Below are positions 1 to 6,388 of a DNA stretch of 6,388 nucleotides, piece after piece (position 1 is the first letter of the stretch; the number at the start of each line of letters is the position of its first letter). The notes beneath the pieces were generated by a model. The model was not told where the DNA came from, made no database searches, and saw nothing but the letters and a program-made list of their open reading frames with translations. The stretch lies in contig JAJYGE010000566.1 of assembly GCA_021785155.1 (NCBI GenBank), positions 1-6,388 on the forward strand, written 5' to 3'. Source of the stretch: Planctomycetota bacterium (GTDB lineage: Bacteria > Planctomycetota > Phycisphaerae > WQYP01). Made by a program: the position numbers and the translations under genes.

Positions 1-391
1 AATCGTTGGTGTAACTGTTTCCCGTGCGGGTAATGTGTTGATTGTCAATGGCGTAAAAGTGGAAATTGCCGAAGCCTGTGACGGAATGCGTATGGCGATT
101 GCCCTTATGGTGCTTGTGGCAACATTCACTCTCAGTATTCCAATGAATCGCTGGGCCCGAGCCATTTTTCTGATTTTAAGTCCTGTGGTGGCGTTGCTTT
201 GTAACATTATTCGCCTGGTTCCGACGGTGTGGGTTTTCGGTAAATACCCGCATGCCGCCGCCGAGAATTTTCATAACATTGCCGGCTGGTTGATGCTGCC
301 GATCGCGTTTTTGTTGTTCTGGTCCGTTTTGCGATTATTGCGCTGGGCGTCTGTACCGGTAGCTCCGTTCGGCCTCGCCTACGATCAGTGA
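1..391 (+). CDS. Exosortase, C-terminal part (5' end outside window)
   Basis: This is the C-terminal 129 codons of an exosortase, an integral inner-membrane transpeptidase that cleaves and anchors proteins carrying a C-terminal sorting tag. The frame is open from base 2 with no stop, so the gene begins upstream; the GTG at 35 is an internal valine codon, not a start. Three family signatures are in order. The nucleophile motif EACDGMR has its Cys codon at 77-79, the NIIRLVP motif has its Arg at 212-214, and FHNIAGW has its His at 272-274. Hydrophobic helices lie between them and after the His. Two positions differ from common versions: Asp replaces the usual Ser after the Cys (EACSG in many members), and Asn follows the catalytic His where Asp or Glu is frequent. 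The subtype (XrtA, XrtU and so on) cannot be assigned from this fragment. A gene for its EpsI partner follows after a 266-nt gap. Confidence 0.93.
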   Translation, partial: IVGVTVSRAGNVLIVNGVKVEIAEACDGMRMAIALMVLVATFTLSIPMNRWARAIFLILSPVVALLCNIIRLVPTVWVFGKYPHAAAENFHNIAGWLMLPIAFLLFWSVLRLLRWASVPVAPFGLAYDQ

Positions 392-394
392 AAG

Positions 395-411
395 GCCGAG
401 CTATGCTCGGC
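395..411 (+). repeat. Hairpin A, 7-bp perfect stem
   Basis: GCCGAGC and GCTCGGC form a perfect 7-bp stem around a TAT loop. It starts 3 nt after the exosortase stop codon. It is followed by TTAGTGAGTC rather than a U-tract, so it is more likely an mRNA 3'-end stabiliser or part of the repeat array than an intrinsic terminator. Confidence 0.8.
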
Positions 412-421
412 TTAGTGAGTC

Positions 422-438
422 ATTCGCCTTCGGCGAAT
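422..438 (+). repeat. Hairpin B, 7-bp perfect stem
   Basis: ATTCGCC and GGCGAAT form a perfect 7-bp stem around a TTC loop. It has the same stem and loop lengths as hairpin A, 10 nt upstream, but an unrelated stem sequence. No T-tract follows. Confidence 0.8.
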
Positions 439-477
439 TCAGTAGAGAAGGAAAGCCACCGTTTAAGTGTAGCGCAG

Positions 478-493
478 TCCCGGCGCCCCGGGA
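478..493 (+). repeat. Hairpin C, TCCCGG/CCGGGA
   Basis: TCCCGG and CCGGGA form a 6-bp stem around CGCC, extendable by a G-T pair. The left arm with its flank, AGTCCCGGCG (476-485), recurs exactly in hairpin D at 565-574, so C and D appear to be diverged copies of one palindrome. Confidence 0.75.
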
Positions 494-564
494 TATCATT
501 ACTCATTAGGGCCGCAGGTCGTCTCATTATTCATTGAGCGCCGCGTCGCGTAGTGTTTCGCTGA

Positions 565-584
565 AGTCCCGGCGTGCCGGGACT
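565..584 (+). repeat. Hairpin D, 9-bp perfect palindromic stem
   Basis: AGTCCCGGC and GCCGGGACT form a perfect 9-bp inverted repeat around GT; in RNA this would probably be an 8-bp stem with a CGTG loop. It is the strongest hairpin in the region and shares a 10-mer with hairpin C. It is followed by GTTTCACTAAGG, not a U-tract. Confidence 0.85.
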
Positions 585-594
585 GTTTCACTAA

Positions 595-619
595 GGACGC
601 GGCCAAAGGCCTGCCGTCC
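595..619 (+). repeat. Hairpin E upstream of epsI
   Basis: GGACG pairs with CGTCC and, inside it, GGCC pairs with GGCC around an AAA loop, with a small asymmetric internal loop (C against TGC). It ends 38 nt before the epsI GTG start, so in a leader transcript it could influence epsI expression. No T-run follows it. Confidence 0.7.
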
Positions 620-657
620 ATTTCACCAAGGCCGAGTCGTTTCACTGGAACTTTATC

Positions 658-1374
658 GTGCTAAAACAACGTACAACATTCTCCCATCGTCCGCTCTGGT
701 TTAATTGGGCACCCGCGTTCGCCTGCGTCATTTTGCTGGCGGCCATTGAGGCGCGCGCGTACTTTGAAAAGCCGCCCAAGCAGGCGGGAGCTTATCTGGC
801 CCATGTCCAGTCTCTGGCGGAACAGATGCCGAAGGCTTTTGGCCACTGGATCGGCCGCGACGTGCCATTACCACTTTCCGCTGTACATTTGCTGCAACCC
901 AATGTGGATTTATGCCGCAACTTTGTCAACAGCAAAACCGGTGAACAGGCCACCTTAATGGTCATCGACTGCTCGGATACCCGCAATCTTTCTGGCCACT
1001 ATCCACCAAATTGCTATCCCGGCAACGGCTGGATATTGGATAAATCAACCGCGAAAACCTGGGTGATCGAGAAAACGCCCATCACGGGAATGGAATACAA
1101 ATTTCATCGCGGAGCCTTCGATACTGAATCACATATATATGTTGATGATTTCTTTATTATGCCGGACGGTAAATTTCTCGCCACTGAACGGGAATTTCTC
1201 CATGATTCCGGAAGTTTTGATGAACGTGTGTTTGGGGCCGCGCAGGTGGAATTAACTCTGCCTGGCGACATGCTTCCCGCTGATCGGTTGCAGGTATTTC
1301 ATGACCTGATTGGCGCGAACTGGAAGCTCATTACTGCAATCTTACATGGGGTGTCCAATGAATACGCAAAATGA
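658..1374 (+). CDS. epsI: EpsI family exosortase-associated protein
   Basis: This 238-residue protein is of the EpsI type (DUF3485), the standard companion of exosortases, encoded next to them or fused to them in exopolysaccharide/protein-sorting loci. Its biochemical role is not firmly established. The N-terminus has one membrane segment at about residues 17-30, consistent with an inner-membrane anchor and a periplasmic body. The diagnostic motif is at residues 113-125: G-H114-Y-P-P-N-C119-Y-P-G-N-G-W125, the HxPxxCY...GW signature of the family. It also has the early GHWIGRDVPLP segment. The length fits the family. The start is GTG at 658: an in-frame stop at 592-594 limits extension, no ATG lies nearby, and starting here keeps the anchor. 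No strong Shine-Dalgarno is visible (TGGA at 646-649 is weak). Its 3' end overlaps the next gene by 17 nt, so the two are probably co-translated. Confidence 0.9.
   Translation: MLKQRTTFSHRPLWFNWAPAFACVILLAAIEARAYFEKPPKQAGAYLAHVQSLAEQMPKAFGHWIGRDVPLPLSAVHLLQPNVDLCRNFVNSKTGEQATLMVIDCSDTRNLSGHYPPNCYPGNGWILDKSTAKTWVIEKTPITGMEYKFHRGAFDTESHIYVDDFFIMPDGKFLATEREFLHDSGSFDERVFGAAQVELTLPGDMLPADRLQVFHDLIGANWKLITAILHGVSNEYAK
1348..1353 (+). promoter_or_regulatory. Ribosome binding site deciding the kinase start
   Basis: GGGGTG lies 4 nt before the ATG at 1358, inside the epsI coding region. It supports that ATG over the in-frame ATGs at 1310 and 1346, which have no purine-rich site upstream. Confidence 0.6.
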
Positions 1375-3808
1375 CAATATGGATTACGCGCCAACATCAC
1401 TTAGGCCCGAAATGGTTTCCGGACCGGCGCAGTATTCCGATTCCGGCGAACCGATGGCCAATCCGCTGCTGCTGATCCATCGGCTGCTGACAGGGCGCTA
1501 TCATTGGGCCATTCTGCTGGGGTTGATGCTGGCGATCGCCGGTAGTGCGCTGACATACAAGAGTATCAAGCTGGTGTACACCAGCACCGGACTGGTGCGC
1601 ATTTTGCCTTATTTGCCCCGCATTCTGTATTCAACCTCGCAGAATGAAGCCATGCCAATGTTTAGTGCATACATTAATTCGCAAACCGCGCTGATTATGA
1701 GTTCTCGCACCATTGATCTGGCTATGCAGAATCCCAAATGGCAGGCCCTGCACCGCGGTATTGATGCCGCAGCCAAGGCCCGATTCGCCTCTGAATTAGC
1801 CGTTACCCATAAGCCCGGCAGTGAATTAATTTATGTCGCCTATACCAGCAAAGACCCGGTTGTGGCGCAAATTGGTGCCGATGCGGTGATCGGTGCCTAT
1901 CGTCAACTTTACAGCCACGGCGATTCGGCCACGCAAAGCCTGCAAATCAGCGCCCTGCGCGACCGCCAAACCGTTTTACAAAATGAATTGCAAAGCGATC
2001 AGGATCAGATTGCCTCGTTATCCAGCCAATACGGTGCCGACGGTCTCGGTACGGTTTATAACTACAAGCTCGGTTTAATGAATGAGCTTGATACCCAATG
2101 GCAGGAAGCCCGAATTGCCTTGGCCAAAGCCGGCTCAAGCTCTGGTAAGACCAAAGGAAAAAAGGGAGGGAAAAATGTCGCCAAAGCGCCATTGGCTCCT
2201 ATGTATGACCCGCAAGTTGCACAGTTTGAGCTGCAGGCATTGGCTCTGAAAAAATCAATTAAGGAACTGGAACTTTCCGGCTTAGGCCCCAACAACCATC
2301 GCATCATGAACTTGCAATCGAGTTTGGATGCTCTGCGTGATGAAATGCGCAGCTATCAGGCCAGCTTATCCGGAAAAGGTCCTTCCATGGCTCCAACCAC
2401 GCCGGGCGGGCCGATGTCATTGGCCCTGCTTAAGGCGCGGGAACATCAATTGCGAATTTTGTATGAATCTGTAAAAGCTCAAACTCTTGATCTCGGCGGC
2501 GTGTATGCCAAGGTGCAAAATCTGCAAACGCAAAGCCAGGATTTGCGACAGCAATTAAATACGATCAAGTCCCGTATGGATGCCATTAACATGGAATCCG
2601 CTACCGGCGGTCGCATCCGCGTTGAGAGCACTGGTGATTTTCCCGCGGCTCCGACAACCAAGTCCCGCCATCTTCGTCTCGCCGCCGCCGCCGCCGCCGG
2701 ACTCGGCGGAATAATCGTCGGCTTTGGCCTGGTATTGCTGTGGGGCTTCATGCACGGCAATCTCCGCACCGTCGGCGATATGCAAATAACCACCTTGAAC
2801 TCCTACCGTGTTCTCGGAGCTGTTCCACAGTTGCCCCCCAATGGCGCGGCCACACCACTGGAACTCGCCATTGGCGCTCACAGCATTCACCGCATCCGCG
2901 GTCTATTGCAGGTTCGCCCCCGCATGGCCGGCAGTCAGGCCATGGCTCTGACCAGTCCAACCGCCGGTACCGGAAAAACCAGCATGGTTTTGGCCCTTGG
3001 AATGTCTTATGCCGCCTCCGGCATGAAAACTTTGCTTATTGATGCCGATGTGGTTGGTGGACAATTGACCGATCGCATGGGCATTCTCCGCAGCCAGCGC
3101 CTTGGCGATGTGATGGTAAAACACAAAATGATAACCCGTGAACAACTCAAGGAAGCCCTTGCCGCCGCCGGCGAATCCAAACGCCCGGTAGGCTCGGAAT
3201 TGCTGAATCTCGGTTACATTGACCATGAAATGCTTGAAAAGGCTTTGCAAATGCAGCGATTAAGTAAACGTGGCCTGATGGATGCCGTTGCCGGAAAGCC
3301 GCTGGATGAATGTGTGGTGCATACCAAGATTCATAATCTCCATGTTCTGCCGCTGGGACGTACCAAAGCTCACCACGGTGCCCGCATGTCCCCGGCGTCT
3401 ATCCGGGCCATGTTGGCGCATGCCAAGGAACAATATGATATGGTGCTGGTAGATACCGGTCCGGTACTGGGGTCACTGGAATCCGCATTGCTGGCCAGTC
3501 AGGCCGACGGCGTGCTGATGGTCGTGGCGCGCGGGGAGAGCCGCAACCTGTCCGGGCGTGCGGCTGATTATCTGGCATCCGTTGGAGCGCACTTGGAGGG
3601 TGTGGTATTTAACCGTGCCACCGAACGCGATATGCAGCGGCAATCGTATAGTACATCGCTGGAAAGCTTTACCAGTGCCGCGCCAACTGCGGATAACTCG
3701 CTGGCGGTTCAGAATGATACGGATCGTCTCAAGCCGCTGGTTCCGCTTGGCCCGCTGGCCATGGCGGTTGCGGCGTCTGCCAGCACGCAGGATGAAGAGG
3801 AAAAATGA
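1358..3808 (+). CDS. Wzz/GumC-like chain-length protein with BY-kinase-type ATPase and MshEN-like insertion
   Basis: This 816-residue protein is a polysaccharide co-polymerase of the Wzc/GumC kind, acting at the inner membrane in polysaccharide polymerisation and export. Order: cytoplasmic N-tail; TM1 at about 50-66; a periplasmic region with long coiled-coil stretches and a Lys/Gly-rich patch (about 259-280); a PAAP motif (429-432) typical of Wzz proteins before TM2 (about 441-463); and a cytoplasmic P-loop domain. That domain has Walker A SPTAGTGKTS (K540), Walker A' TLLIDAD (D562, D564) and Walker B MVLVD (695-699). Between A' and B, residues 581-633 insert a two-repeat MshEN-like domain, after which the kinase fold resumes with GLMDAVAGK (639). 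Odd points: no Arg follows Walker A' (DADVVGG), HxxHxxR (508-514) replaces ExxRxxR, and the C-terminal tail has a single Tyr (Y764) rather than a cluster. Tyrosine kinase activity is therefore uncertain; a regulatory ATPase is an alternative. The ATG at 1358 is preferred on its ribosome binding site. Confidence 0.9.
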   Translation: MNTQNDNMDYAPTSLRPEMVSGPAQYSDSGEPMANPLLLIHRLLTGRYHWAILLGLMLAIAGSALTYKSIKLVYTSTGLVRILPYLPRILYSTSQNEAMPMFSAYINSQTALIMSSRTIDLAMQNPKWQALHRGIDAAAKARFASELAVTHKPGSELIYVAYTSKDPVVAQIGADAVIGAYRQLYSHGDSATQSLQISALRDRQTVLQNELQSDQDQIASLSSQYGADGLGTVYNYKLGLMNELDTQWQEARIALAKAGSSSGKTKGKKGGKNVAKAPLAPMYDPQVAQFELQALALKKSIKELELSGLGPNNHRIMNLQSSLDALRDEMRSYQASLSGKGPSMAPTTPGGPMSLALLKAREHQLRILYESVKAQTLDLGGVYAKVQNLQTQSQDLRQQLNTIKSRMDAINMESATGGRIRVESTGDFPAAPTTKSRHLRLAAAAAAGLGGIIVGFGLVLLWGFMHGNLRTVGDMQITTLNSYRVLGAVPQLPPNGAATPLELAIGAHSIHRIRGLLQVRPRMAGSQAMALTSPTAGTGKTSMVLALGMSYAASGMKTLLIDADVVGGQLTDRMGILRSQRLGDVMVKHKMITREQLKEALAAAGESKRPVGSELLNLGYIDHEMLEKALQMQRLSKRGLMDAVAGKPLDECVVHTKIHNLHVLPLGRTKAHHGARMSPASIRAMLAHAKEQYDMVLVDTGPVLGSLESALLASQADGVLMVVARGESRNLSGRAADYLASVGAHLEGVVFNRATERDMQRQSYSTSLESFTSAAPTADNSLAVQNDTDRLKPLVPLGPLAMAVAASASTQDEEEK
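2681..2698 (+). repeat. (GCC)6 tract
   Basis: Six GCC triplets encode Ala442-447 at the start of TM2. Gain or loss of a unit would change the helix length by one Ala without shifting frame. It is probably compositional rather than a phase-variation switch. Confidence 0.8.
3098..3256 (+). other. MshEN-like tandem repeat domain inside the kinase domain
   Basis: Residues 581-604 begin RLGDVMVKHKMITREQL and residues 610-633 begin PVGSELLNLGYIDHEML, each 24 long and separated by five residues (GESKR). This reproduces the RLGxxLVxxGxIxxxxLxxxLxxQ pattern and spacing known for MshEN/GspE N-terminal domains, which bind c-di-GMP in MshE. Motif I keeps R581-L-G583 but ends in Ala604 where Gln is usual. 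Motif II keeps G612 and the final Q633 but has Pro-Val in place of Arg-Leu, with R609 just before it. The fold is therefore likely, while nucleotide binding is uncertain. Confidence 0.75.
3796..3800 (+). promoter_or_regulatory. Ribosome binding site of the 3805 gene
   Basis: AGAGG ends 4 nt before the ATG at 3805, within the last codons of the kinase gene. It supports the ATGA overlap start over the next in-frame ATG at 3829. Confidence 0.6.
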
Positions 3809-4599
3809 CACTCCTGGTGGAGCAAAACATGCAGGCCTCTTTTGGTACTCCGGCAAATGCGCTGACGGTGTGGGGACATTCCCCATCCGCGCTGCATGAT
3901 TTATTCTGGCTTTCCAGGGAAGTGGCTGTTGTGCGGCCCGGCTCCATAGAGCCCATTTCGCCTGATGCCAGGCTGTTTCTGCTGATCCCGGCGGGTAAAT
4001 TATTCCGCCTGCATCTCCGGTTTGTTCTCGATCAGTTATTTTGGATGCCGCGGGCGATGTATCTCATTGGCCTTAATCCGCCAACGCGACGCAACCCCGC
4101 AAGAGACCGCGATAAAAAATCGATGACCAATGATCACAATCACGGAAATCCAGGCACCTTGATCGTTGATCAAAGTCCACTGGCCGTCGAACCCGCCGCT
4201 CGACTGGCGCTTACCCCGCACCGGCAGATCGCGGATTACTGGCGTACCATCAGCACAACGGATAACGTATGGATGCGGCTGCGGCGGCAATATCCGAATT
4301 TCGGCTCGATCAAAGTGCCCGGCCTGGCGTATGCGGCCAGCGGTTGTCAGGCTATGGATTATCTTCAGGCGTTAACGCGGGATTGGTCTGATCCGGAAAT
4401 AGCCATTGCCGGTATCACCCGTCTGGCGCATCGTGTATATGGACCCATAGGTTTTGATATGTCAATGTTAAAAAATCATACGCGACCTCTCTGGATCGGC
4501 AAGGGCTGTGATCCCGCCTGTGCGGGTCTCACCGCCCCGGTACTGCCGGATGTCGTACCCGTCACGATTCCAACTGCTTCCAATATCGGGAGGAAATAA
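3805..4599 (+). CDS. Unrecognised protein of the exosortase/polysaccharide operon
   Basis: This 264-residue protein has no function I can name. It has no signal peptide, lipobox or clear membrane span, so it is probably cytoplasmic. It looks like two parts. Residues about 22-91 include WGHSPSALHDLFWLSREVAV and a hydrophobic stretch DARLFLLIPAGKLFRL. A basic, polar linker follows at about 94-117 (Arg/Lys, then Asn/His-rich). Residues about 118-250 include ARLALTPHRQIADYW and VWMRLRRQYPNFGS. Cysteines occur at GCQAM and in CDPAC near the C-terminus. None of these matches a catalytic motif of a glycosyltransferase or phosphatase that I can identify. The start overlaps the kinase stop by 4 nt (ATGA) and the stop overlaps the TPR start by 1 nt, so it is firmly part of the operon. 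A role in polysaccharide assembly or in regulating the kinase is inferred from context only. Confidence 0.85.
   Translation: MTLLVEQNMQASFGTPANALTVWGHSPSALHDLFWLSREVAVVRPGSIEPISPDARLFLLIPAGKLFRLHLRFVLDQLFWMPRAMYLIGLNPPTRRNPARDRDKKSMTNDHNHGNPGTLIVDQSPLAVEPAARLALTPHRQIADYWRTISTTDNVWMRLRRQYPNFGSIKVPGLAYAASGCQAMDYLQALTRDWSDPEIAIAGITRLAHRVYGPIGFDMSMLKNHTRPLWIGKGCDPACAGLTAPVLPDVVPVTIPTASNIGRK
4588..4593 (+). promoter_or_regulatory. Strong ribosome binding site of the TPR gene
   Basis: GGGAGG lies 5 nt before the ATG at 4599. It is the best Shine-Dalgarno in the window and fixes the TPR start at the TAATG junction. Confidence 0.8.
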
Positions 4600-6388
4600 T
4601 GAATTCACGGCAACGCATGAAACACCGCCTGCTGATACTCGGTGGTGTGATTTTGGCCTTGGTCGTGCTTGGCGGCGCTTTGGTGATATACCGCAAGCAC
4701 AGCATTCATGAGCACTTCCTGCAGCTGCGTGCCCAGGGATTAGCCGCGGTAAAGGCCAAGAAATACGAACTGGCACTCGGTGATCTCGGTGCCTATCTGG
4801 GACAGGACCCGACTGATCTGCCATCATTGGAAGGTTATGCCGCGGCGAGCCTGAAAGTTCCGCAGCCCGGTGGAAAAAATCTGTATCAGGCCGCCTCGGT
4901 AATCAAGCAGATTCTTTATCAAAAGCCCAACGATCTCAAATACCAGCAGAAACTCGTAAAATTACTGGCCGAGCTGAATTACAATGTAGAATGTGTCACG
5001 TTGGCCCATCAGATGCTGGCAAAAAATCCCAACAATTTGCCGGCGCTGGAATCCGAATCTCAAGCCTATGGCCGATTGCGAAAATTCAGGCGCGCTTTTG
5101 CCGCCGCCAATAAAGCGTTCCAGTTGTCGCCGGATCGCATCCAAAACGGTTTTCTCGCTTTGGATATGCTGTATCAGCGGCAGTTGCCGACCAGCGCTTT
5201 GACCAACTGGGCGGGAAAATTTCTGGCCAAATCGCCCGCCAATCCGGTGTATCAGGTTCTCGGCAGTGCCGCCGCCGCGTTGGCCGGTCAGCCGGATAAC
5301 GCCAAGCATTTGGCTCTTAAAGCCGCCGCAAATCCCAACCTCCCGGAAGCGGTTATTCTTCCGTTGGTTCGGCAACTTGATTCTCTGCAACTTTATACGC
5401 AGGCCACTCTGGTGCTGGAACATGCCGTCCGCCATGGCGCATCGGTTCCCATTCTGGAAGCGCTATGCGAACGGCTCTATCAGCAGGGAAATGATGCTGC
5501 TGTCCTGAAACTCACGGCGGCGAAATCGACGGGTCATCCACTGCTTTTGGCCTACCGGGCGCGATCTTTGATGCGTCTGGATCATCCGCATCGTGCGGCG
5601 CAGATTCTTCAATTGCTCAAAGCTATTAAAACGCCCGTCGCCAGCCAATGGTATGCGGTGCTGAATTTGCGGTTACATCCCAATGTGTCGGATTTGACGC
5701 GGATGAAAATTCTGCGCTCTGCGGCCTCCACCTTTCCCGGTCAGGCTTACTTTGTTGAGATGCTGGGATCCGGTTATCAGCATGTTGGCGAATTGGAACT
5801 CGCTCTTATTCAGTGGCAAAACGCCGCACGCCTGTCCCCAACCTGGCCGGAACCCATTTTGCACCTGGCACTGGGGTTGGTGCGGGCGGGGCATCTCAAG
5901 GCCGCACAATTGCTGGTGAAACATGCCGCACAATTGGCTCCGGATAATAAGCAGGTGCTCATTGATCACATCCGTCTGCTGGCCACGGCGACAGCCGTCA
6001 ACAAACCCGCTCGCGTGGAAGCGTTGCTAAGTTCTATTGAGAATCTGCAACGCCAATTTCCCGGAAAGCCTATTCTGCTGTCTGAACAAATTCGCTGCCT
6101 GATTGCGTTAAAACAATTGGCTGCGGCACGCACATTAATTGCCACTGCCCTGACGGCCAATCCGCCGCATAAACTTTCCACCCTCCTGGGGTTATATGCC
6201 ATCAATCGGATCAACAAACTGAATATGGGACAAACCATTTTGGCTGCCGCCGAAAAAACCTATGGCCTTCGCCCGCGCATCGCTTTGGCGTATGCCGGGC
6301 GATTGCTGCAGGCCAAACACCCCAAGCAGGCATTGGCATATCTGAAATCGCACCGCAAAACAACCGGCGCTATGGCTCCGCAATGGGA
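4599..6388 (+). CDS. Membrane-anchored TPR protein, 5' part (3' end outside window)
   Basis: The frame from the ATG at 4599 stays open to the last base: 596 complete codons plus 2 nt, with no stop. The N-terminus is basic (MNSRQRMKHR) and is followed by one hydrophobic helix at about 11-31, with no cysteine lipobox. This predicts an uncleaved inner-membrane anchor with a periplasmic body. The rest is alpha-helical and TPR-like. Clear units are near residues 45-75, 105-180 (YNVECVTLAHQMLAKNP and FRRAFAAANKAFQLSPDR) and 388-457 (GELELALIQWQNAARLSP, then GHLKAAQLLVKHAAQLAPDN). Large TPR proteins such as PrsT recur in exosortase loci and are thought to scaffold polysaccharide export, but PrsT is a predicted lipoprotein and this one is not. 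The partner is unknown. Start choice rests on GGGAGG and the 1-nt overlap with the preceding stop. Confidence 0.9.
   Translation, partial: MNSRQRMKHRLLILGGVILALVVLGGALVIYRKHSIHEHFLQLRAQGLAAVKAKKYELALGDLGAYLGQDPTDLPSLEGYAAASLKVPQPGGKNLYQAASVIKQILYQKPNDLKYQQKLVKLLAELNYNVECVTLAHQMLAKNPNNLPALESESQAYGRLRKFRRAFAAANKAFQLSPDRIQNGFLALDMLYQRQLPTSALTNWAGKFLAKSPANPVYQVLGSAAAALAGQPDNAKHLALKAAANPNLPEAVILPLVRQLDSLQLYTQATLVLEHAVRHGASVPILEALCERLYQQGNDAAVLKLTAAKSTGHPLLLAYRARSLMRLDHPHRAAQILQLLKAIKTPVASQWYAVLNLRLHPNVSDLTRMKILRSAASTFPGQAYFVEMLGSGYQHVGELELALIQWQNAARLSPTWPEPILHLALGLVRAGHLKAAQLLVKHAAQLAPDNKQVLIDHIRLLATATAVNKPARVEALLSSIENLQRQFPGKPILLSEQIRCLIALKQLAAARTLIATALTANPPHKLSTLLGLYAINRINKLNMGQTILAAAEKTYGLRPRIALAYAGRLLQAKHPKQALAYLKSHRKTTGAMAPQW
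5901..5936 (+). repeat. 12-mer direct repeat inside TPR unit
   Basis: GCCGCACAATTG occurs at 5901-5912 and again at 5925-5936, exactly eight codons apart, encoding AAQL twice within one TPR. It probably reflects local helix repetition or a small duplication. Confidence 0.7.

Follow-up and report, generated by a model that had tools for sequence, protein, structure and literature searches.

A c-di-GMP-binding-type MshEN_N module within the nucleotide-binding domain of a planctomycete polysaccharide co-polymerase

We analyzed a 6,388-nucleotide stretch of a Planctomycetota bacterium (assembly GCA_021785155.1, contig JAJYGE010000566.1, positions 1 to 6,388 of the forward strand; hereafter, the window), which encodes a polysaccharide co-polymerase of the PCP-2 type. 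Its cytoplasmic domain resembles that of bacterial tyrosine kinases (BY-kinases) and carries an insert of 53 residues. The sequence comparisons indicate that this insert is a true MshEN_N-type module, homologous to the MshEN_N domains that bind cyclic di-GMP (c-di-GMP). We consider it fairly probable that planctomycete PCP-2 proteins acquired the module long ago, within their nucleotide-binding domain, and that c-di-GMP controls the co-polymerase. The arrangement suggests direct c-di-GMP control of slime production. The features on which the argument draws are as follows.

1358..3808, + strand: 816-residue polysaccharide co-polymerase (PCP-2 type) with a BY-kinase-like cytoplasmic domain, host of the insert (open reading frame)
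2951..2983, + strand: Walker A (P-loop) TSPTAGTGKTS, residues 532-542; G-K invariant in alignments A1 and A3
3032..3049, + strand: Walker A' LLIDAD, residues 559-564, followed by VV in place of x-Arg (alignment)
3098..3256, + strand: MshEN_N-type insert, residues 581-633 (NF053729 match, four predicted helices, shuffle test)
3098..3169, + strand: motif I, residues 581-604; R581, L582, G583, D584, L597 and L601 kept, Gly18 replaced by K590 and Gln32 by A604 (contact list of PMC5013675)
3185..3256, + strand: motif II, residues 610-633; G612, G619, L626, L630 and Q633 kept, Arg38 replaced by P610 (R609 stands just before) and Leu39 by V611 (PMC5013675)
3272..3298, + strand: GLMDAVAGK, residues 639-647, where ordinary kinase-like sequence restarts; G639 invariant in A3
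3443..3463, + strand: Walker B VLVDTGP, residues 696-702, with DTGP in place of DxPP (alignment)

The ATG at 1358 was chosen as the likely start of the co-polymerase, whose open reading frame as listed opens at an earlier TTG.

The insert consists of RLGDVMVKHKMITREQLKEALAAA (motif I), the spacer GESKR (residues 605-609), and PVGSELLNLGYIDHEMLEKALQMQ (motif II), in a layout of 24+5+24 residues. It starts 16 residues past the DAD of Walker A', and RLSKR separates its end from G639. The distance from Walker A' to Walker B is 131 residues in the window versus 74 in P0031, a relative without the insert. A first-pass annotation of the window had described two 24-residue repeats with a five-residue spacer between Walker A' and Walker B, with the ordinary kinase segment resuming at GLMDAVAGK, and its coordinates, 3098-3256, proved exact. 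It had also correctly noted that motif I lacks its final Gln (Ala in the window) and motif II its leading Arg-Leu (Pro-Val, with an Arg one position earlier).

The proposed kinship with MshEN was borne out by profile comparison. NF053729, the NCBIfam model of the MshE-related c-di-GMP motif, matched the insert over positions 1-53 of 53 with 45.2 bits against a curated cut-off of 38 (E 5.8e-12). A profile built from 17 inserts, all taken from beyond the genus, scored 46.5 bits on the window protein, exactly at residues 581-633, whereas the best of 2000 shuffles of that protein reached 10.0 bits. A further insert profile (A4) was built from 24 of the 35 members of alignment A3, that is, the window and 23 of 34 loci, the 11 omitted loci having mostly degenerate inserts. 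Against the sequences of the Protein Data Bank, A4 matched Vibrio cholerae MshE (5htl) at E 2.1e-16, with profile positions 4-58 on MshE residues 7-61, and PilF (6f8l) at E 5.8e-27; PilB chains were also matched. A chance likeness of a helical insert to the motif would account for the imperfect motif and for the failure of PF05157, the profile that the first-pass annotation had put forward as a check, to match the whole co-polymerase or two pieces cut from it at E<=1. The latter result speaks against the identification but is not decisive, because in the source genome PF05157 covers the part behind the 53-residue motif: both PF05157 matches there start directly behind NF053729 matches. No MshEN_C part was found with the insert. 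Given the scores above and the fuller motifs at the same site in relatives, chance similarity appears very unlikely, with a probability close to negligible.

The fold prediction points in the same direction. AlphaFold2, run on residues 485-816 with 49 sequences, returned a kinase-like fold with a mean predicted local distance difference test score (pLDDT) of 89.8 and a predicted template modeling score of 0.86. In this model, the insert occupies residues 97-149 and forms helices at 98-104, 110-123, 127-133, and 139-151. The mean pLDDT per ten-residue block was 94-98 over model residues 101-150 and 91 for residues 91-100. Four helices were predicted again when the insert was folded alone (24 sequences; pLDDT 78.3). 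MshEN_N is described as a four-helix domain (PMC5013675), which the predicted arrangement fits.

The insertion, whose conservation in homologous loci had been raised as a question, is found again at the same site in numerous relatives. A scan of genome contigs, from which the best 80 of at least 221 loci were kept, and searches of genomes yielded insert-bearing relatives from many genomes of planctomycetes. In a search of the class, taken to be Phycisphaerae because of how close relatives are named, with up to five candidates scored per genome, 94 of 397 genomes matched at E<=1e-15; the match ran through the insert position in 35 of them by hand count and lay in separate pieces, or only behind the insert, in the rest. 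All of the best 30 loci of this search, whose query carried the insert and so favored such loci, have an insert at the same site, which is degenerate in at least seven (L107, L119, L120, L122-L125). NF053729 matched 32 of the 35 A3 members (the window and 34 loci with different inserts) at E<=1e-3. A second protein search with L018, likewise insert-bearing and hence favoring insert-bearers, resulted in 483 proteins, 120 of which were listed. The spacing rule fitted 116 of these 120, and the remaining four also carry the motif on inspection. Within the 116, and in MshE numbering, the equivalents of G11, G40, and Q61 are kept in 115, 116, and 115 proteins, respectively, while Q32 is found in none (Ala in 105, Ser in 7); 99 fit the motif class at every contact position except Q32. 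One of them, P0315, has the motif with a longer spacer and is misread by the spacing rule. In a wider and more divergent set of 56 different inserts, two of which (P0044 and L030) were poorly placed by the script, G11 is kept in 41, G40 in 40, and Q61 in 46, and the Q32 equivalent is Ala or Ser in 48. The first-motif Gln is thus replaced across the insert family and the second-motif Gln mostly kept, whereas EpsG, a BY-kinase relative discussed below, keeps both.

The named insert-bearers are planctomycetes, apart from one record labeled Hydrogenedentota (L030) and one listed protein from Bacillota (P0215). In a sample of 392 genomes of the phylum, with up to six candidates scored in each, 14 genomes matched at E<=1e-25. 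The match ran through the insert in the source genome and nine others, all of the same class; in the four genomes from elsewhere in the phylum, only the part behind the insert was matched, and their longer inserts gave no MshEN signal. Longer inserts at the same site were also seen in P0040-P0043, P0047, P0050, P0053, and L140-L143, with Walker A'-to-B distances of 155-187 in the seven P rows. Those tested (P0040, P0042, P0043, and L140-L143) showed no MshEN signal, and P0040, P0042, P0043, and L033, which have longer or other sequence at the site, did not match NF053729 at E<=1. Such inserts are a possible remnant of the module or an unrelated replacement.

Contig G000:C107 (7131 bases) overlaps the window at 2684-6388, has its end at window position 2684, and differs from the window at 14 of 3705 positions (99.6% identical). 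The place listed for the window, 3427-9814, extends beyond this contig. One of the 14 differences gives Asn for Lys inside the insert.

We compared the window with the contact list of MshE. Nine of the twelve contacts are identical (equivalents of R9, L10, G11, L25, L29, G40, L54, L58, and Q61), and L39 is replaced by Val. MshEN_N by itself binds c-di-GMP; changes of R9, D12, or Q32 in MshE are reported to cost at most about fivefold, any single change of a conserved hydrophobic residue costs more than tenfold, and a change of G11 abolishes binding (PMC5013675). Because of these kept and replaced contacts, set beside the effects of the MshE mutations, the window domain probably binds c-di-GMP, perhaps less tightly. 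The source genome encodes enzymes of c-di-GMP metabolism: GGDEF was matched 16 times and EAL 10 times, in part by incomplete domains.

Several observations weigh against this expectation and against c-di-GMP control. Two contacts are lost in the window, Q32 (Ala604) and R38 (Pro610, with Arg609 one position earlier), and of the turn glycines, G47 is kept but G18 is replaced by Lys590. The Discussion of PMC5013675 names Arg9 and Gln32 as important for binding in an earlier study, and the legend of its Fig. 3 states that a turn Gly changed to Leu or Ile considerably weakens MshE binding. As Q32 is lost in essentially the whole insert family, its members may bind with lower affinity or recognize a different ligand. 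In addition, the kinase part that follows the insert is under stronger constraint than the insert itself, the joint loss of the contact glycines reflects a small number of changes on the tree, and the role of the insert may be partly structural, as detailed below. If the loss of Q32 throughout the clade had shifted specificity, the module might sense another cyclic dinucleotide, such as cyclic GMP-AMP (cGAMP), which MshEN binds weakly (PMC5013675); the replacement of Q32 in the insert sets counted above (48/56, and 112/116 by Ala or Ser) would agree with this, though EpsG keeps Q32 (118/120). However, the Gly pair that recognizes guanine is kept in both halves of the window module and GGDEF and EAL domains are numerous in the genome, and we judge a change of ligand to be improbable.

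A tree of 98 chosen rows was built without the insert, eight further intended rows having been dropped. A clade of 82 rows, with a Shimodaira-Hasegawa-like approximate likelihood ratio support of 100 by a quick method, is set off by a long branch from Wzc-type kinases and EpsG. Within it, a subgroup of 56 rows (support 88) holds nearly all insert-bearing proteins; P0031 and L026 belong to it without an insert, several members have a longer or different one, and P0036 bears the insert yet is placed outside the subgroup. Scored by spacing alone, a rule under which the outgroup row L045 counts as insert-bearing, presence of the insert requires five changes on the tree. Over 44 tree rows, both contact glycines are kept in 31, one is lost in 3, and both are lost in 10. 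In decayed inserts, the two glycines have usually gone together, and the hydrophobic core remains. This joint loss corresponds to only three and five changes on the tree, and a test on independent pairs, of which there were too few, was not significant.

The ratio of nonsynonymous to synonymous substitution rates (dN/dS), by a simple counting method against six genus-level relatives, was 0.043-0.075 for the insert, about equal to that of the kinase part before it (0.043-0.078), and 0.013-0.031 for the kinase part that follows. The insert gave 0.20 and 0.29 when compared with two more distant relatives. Purifying selection therefore maintains the insert, although other sequence in the protein is more tightly constrained, the ratio of the insert being low yet above that of the part behind. 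Because some lineages retain a degenerate insert, part of its role may be structural. Taken further, a fold derived from MshEN would persist in the insert for structure or oligomerization alone, and the lineage of the window would no longer bind c-di-GMP. The absence of the Q32, R38, and Gly18 equivalents in the window and the ten rows that lost both glycines with the helical core intact are in line with this account, for which XpsE, an MshEN homologue known to have lost binding, offers a precedent (PMC5013675). XpsE, however, has eight key positions changed, whereas the window has two or three plus Val for Leu (PMC5013675). Moreover, the window and most listed relatives retain G11, G40, L25, L29, L54, L58, and Q61, a conservation that seems to exceed what a four-helix core needs. 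We regard the purely structural account as unlikely, though not to be dismissed lightly.

BY-kinases are characterized by a Walker A' of the form DxDxR, a Walker B ending in DxPP or similar, and the EX2RX2R oligomerization motif. The host protein departs from this pattern. AAA_31 scores 48.1 bits on it, and TIGR01005, TIGR01007, and TIGR03017 match it below their cut-offs. TIGR01007 gave 78.2 bits for the whole protein and 81.8 for the domain alone against a cut-off of 108.05, which the insert-free P0031 passes with 110.5 bits; TIGR03029, the EpsG model, reached 55.4 bits against 313.8. In the 82-row clade, the Arg of DxDxR is found in no row, versus 16 of 16 rows outside it, and the window reads DADVV. 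P0038 has an Arg one place further on, where the window has Gly, and by our own count this is the place of the ADP-proximal Arg590 of BceF (PMC8394532). The DxPP form of Walker B is likewise missing from all 82 rows, which read DTGP-like, and present in 13 of the 16 outside, the three failing rows being EpsG; EX2RX2R occurs in 0/82 versus 15/16. A C-terminal Tyr cluster, defined as at least three Tyr within 15 residues, was found in 3 of the 82 clade rows, in all 13 Wzc-type rows, and in none of the three EpsG rows, and a single Tyr occurs in the final 70 residues of the window protein. With these hallmarks absent, the host is not a standard BY-kinase, and its tyrosine-kinase activity is doubtful. 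The label of Wzc-type kinase in the first-pass annotation accordingly survives for the Wzc-like co-polymerase architecture, the P-loop, and the Walker A' aspartates, and not for the kinase hallmarks. The losses are independent of the insert, as the 27 clade rows without it share them. Nucleotide binding probably persists in the domain, since A3 shows no variation at the P-loop Lys, the two Asp of Walker A', or the Asp of Walker B.

These features can be joined into a putative mechanism for c-di-GMP control. The ligand would bind across both motifs of the insert. Because both ends of the module leave the loop just after Walker A', ligand-driven movement of the helices would reach the nucleotide site and the ring contacts. 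The resulting change would decide whether the co-polymerase forms its ring and promotes polymer production, with c-di-GMP switching export on. We infer the binding, its effect on nucleotide use or ring assembly, and its direction; a switching of the co-polymerase by c-di-GMP would be a reasonable reading. A bolder proposal, possible but rather doubtful in our estimate, is that the Phycisphaerae PCP-2 proteins lost the Tyr-phosphorylation switch and that in the insert-bearers c-di-GMP drives the ring assembly cycle through the internal module, so that they would form a phosphorylation-independent, c-di-GMP-gated subfamily.

Control of polysaccharide synthesis by c-di-GMP is known through PilZ domains and, in the case of MshEN, from the glycosyltransferase NfrB. 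Here, the co-polymerase itself would house the sensor, within its ATP-binding domain, and the host clade has lost the Tyr cluster that normally drives the co-polymerase cycle. If true, this would show how a phosphorylation-independent PCP-2 protein can be switched, a question raised by the paper on EcpK (PMC12004946), and planctomycetes would gain a direct route from c-di-GMP to extracellular polymer.

The module shares its 24+5+24 layout with the MshEN_N domains of MshE, PilB, PilF, and NfrB (NF053729; 5htl), and the Gly/Leu/Gln pattern of its guanine contacts and its four predicted helices resemble theirs. It differs in lying inside a P-loop domain, whereas theirs are terminal, and in the family-wide replacement of the first-motif Gln. 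In NfrB, MshEN is coupled to a glycosyltransferase and polysaccharide synthesis and binds c-di-GMP with a dissociation constant of 1 uM (PMC8669469). The closest parallel among relatives of BY-kinases is EpsG (TIGR03029), which has the same motif: six of six tested proteins match NF053729, four of them above the cut-off. In EpsG, however, the motif is N-terminal to the kinase, whereas in the window it is internal and its host is fused to the co-polymerase. EpsG belongs to exosortase-type loci for extracellular polysaccharide. Its three tree rows fall outside the 82-row clade, and its substitutions (n=120) are different, with R9 replaced by Ser in 107, L25 by Ala in 118, and Q32 kept in 118, unlike in the window family. 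Given its N-terminal motif, its place outside the clade, and its other substitutions, an origin of the insert from EpsG is not supported. The Discussion of PMC5013675 mentions MshEN in an exopolysaccharide-synthesis protein of Methylobacillus, with the gene unnamed, which would presumably be EpsG.

The Wzc-type PCP-2a BY-kinases (Wzc, Etk, VpsO, and BceF) have the same overall architecture, P-loop, and Walker A' DxD; the window protein lacks their DxDxR, DxPP, EX2RX2R, and Tyr cluster and has the extra 53-residue module. Wzc is proposed to cycle between an octamer and a phosphorylated monomer (PMC8285477). EcpK and HfsB, proposed as BY pseudokinases for phosphorylation-independent PCP-2 proteins, resemble the window domain in being BY-kinase-like, without a Tyr tail, and in serving polysaccharide export, although EcpK is a separate protein without Walker motifs, whereas the window domain is fused and keeps the P-loop Lys and aspartates (PMC12004946). 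Neither c-di-GMP nor MshE occurs in the text of PMC12004946. The first-pass annotation did not recall such an insertion in BY-kinases. The pairing of MshEN with a BY-kinase has a precedent in EpsG, but the position of the module within the catalytic fold and the clade that hosts it seem to be new, and no description of an internal MshEN insertion in a BY-kinase-like co-polymerase was found in the literature searched (titles and the starts of abstracts; open-licence papers). Apart from the co-polymerase, the source genome encodes a Ser/Thr protein kinase with an MshEN-like motif near its N-terminus (L127, G000:C262, an open reading frame of 435 residues), which scored 46.3 bits with NF053729, together with its neighbors, and 181.7 bits with Pkinase.

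The window encodes four further genes around the co-polymerase.

2..391, + strand: exosortase gene, C-terminal part, with the 5' end outside the window (PF09721, 84.3 bits)
658..1374, + strand: exosortase-associated EpsI-like protein (DUF3485), start codon uncertain (PF11984, 38.1 bits; TIGR02914 below cut-off)
3805..4599, + strand: 264-residue protein with homology to the N-terminal half of a sugar transferase encoded at the corresponding place in a related locus; transferase domain absent (BLASTP E 6e-16 to L018:10376-11803)
4599..6388, + strand: start of a tetratricopeptide-repeat (TPR) protein that continues past the window (TPR_14; PrsT-like TIGR02917 below cut-off)

The locus is of the polysaccharide/exosortase type. 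An ABC-2 permease is encoded on the contig beyond the window. In L018 and L020, the exosortase, DUF3485 protein, co-polymerase, and sugar transferase follow in the same order, with the TPR protein next in L020, and in L024, the exosortase and sugar transferase flank the co-polymerase. The 264-residue protein had no Pfam match; its counterpart in L018 is a 476-residue sugar transferase with a Bac_transf domain at the same place in the locus. A Bac_transf domain was not found in the source genome (88% complete). Several short repeats occur in the 266 bases that separate the exosortase end from the EpsI-like gene (window 392-657), including two near-copies of AGTCCCGGCGNNCCGGGA at 476-493 and 565-582, each almost its own reverse complement.

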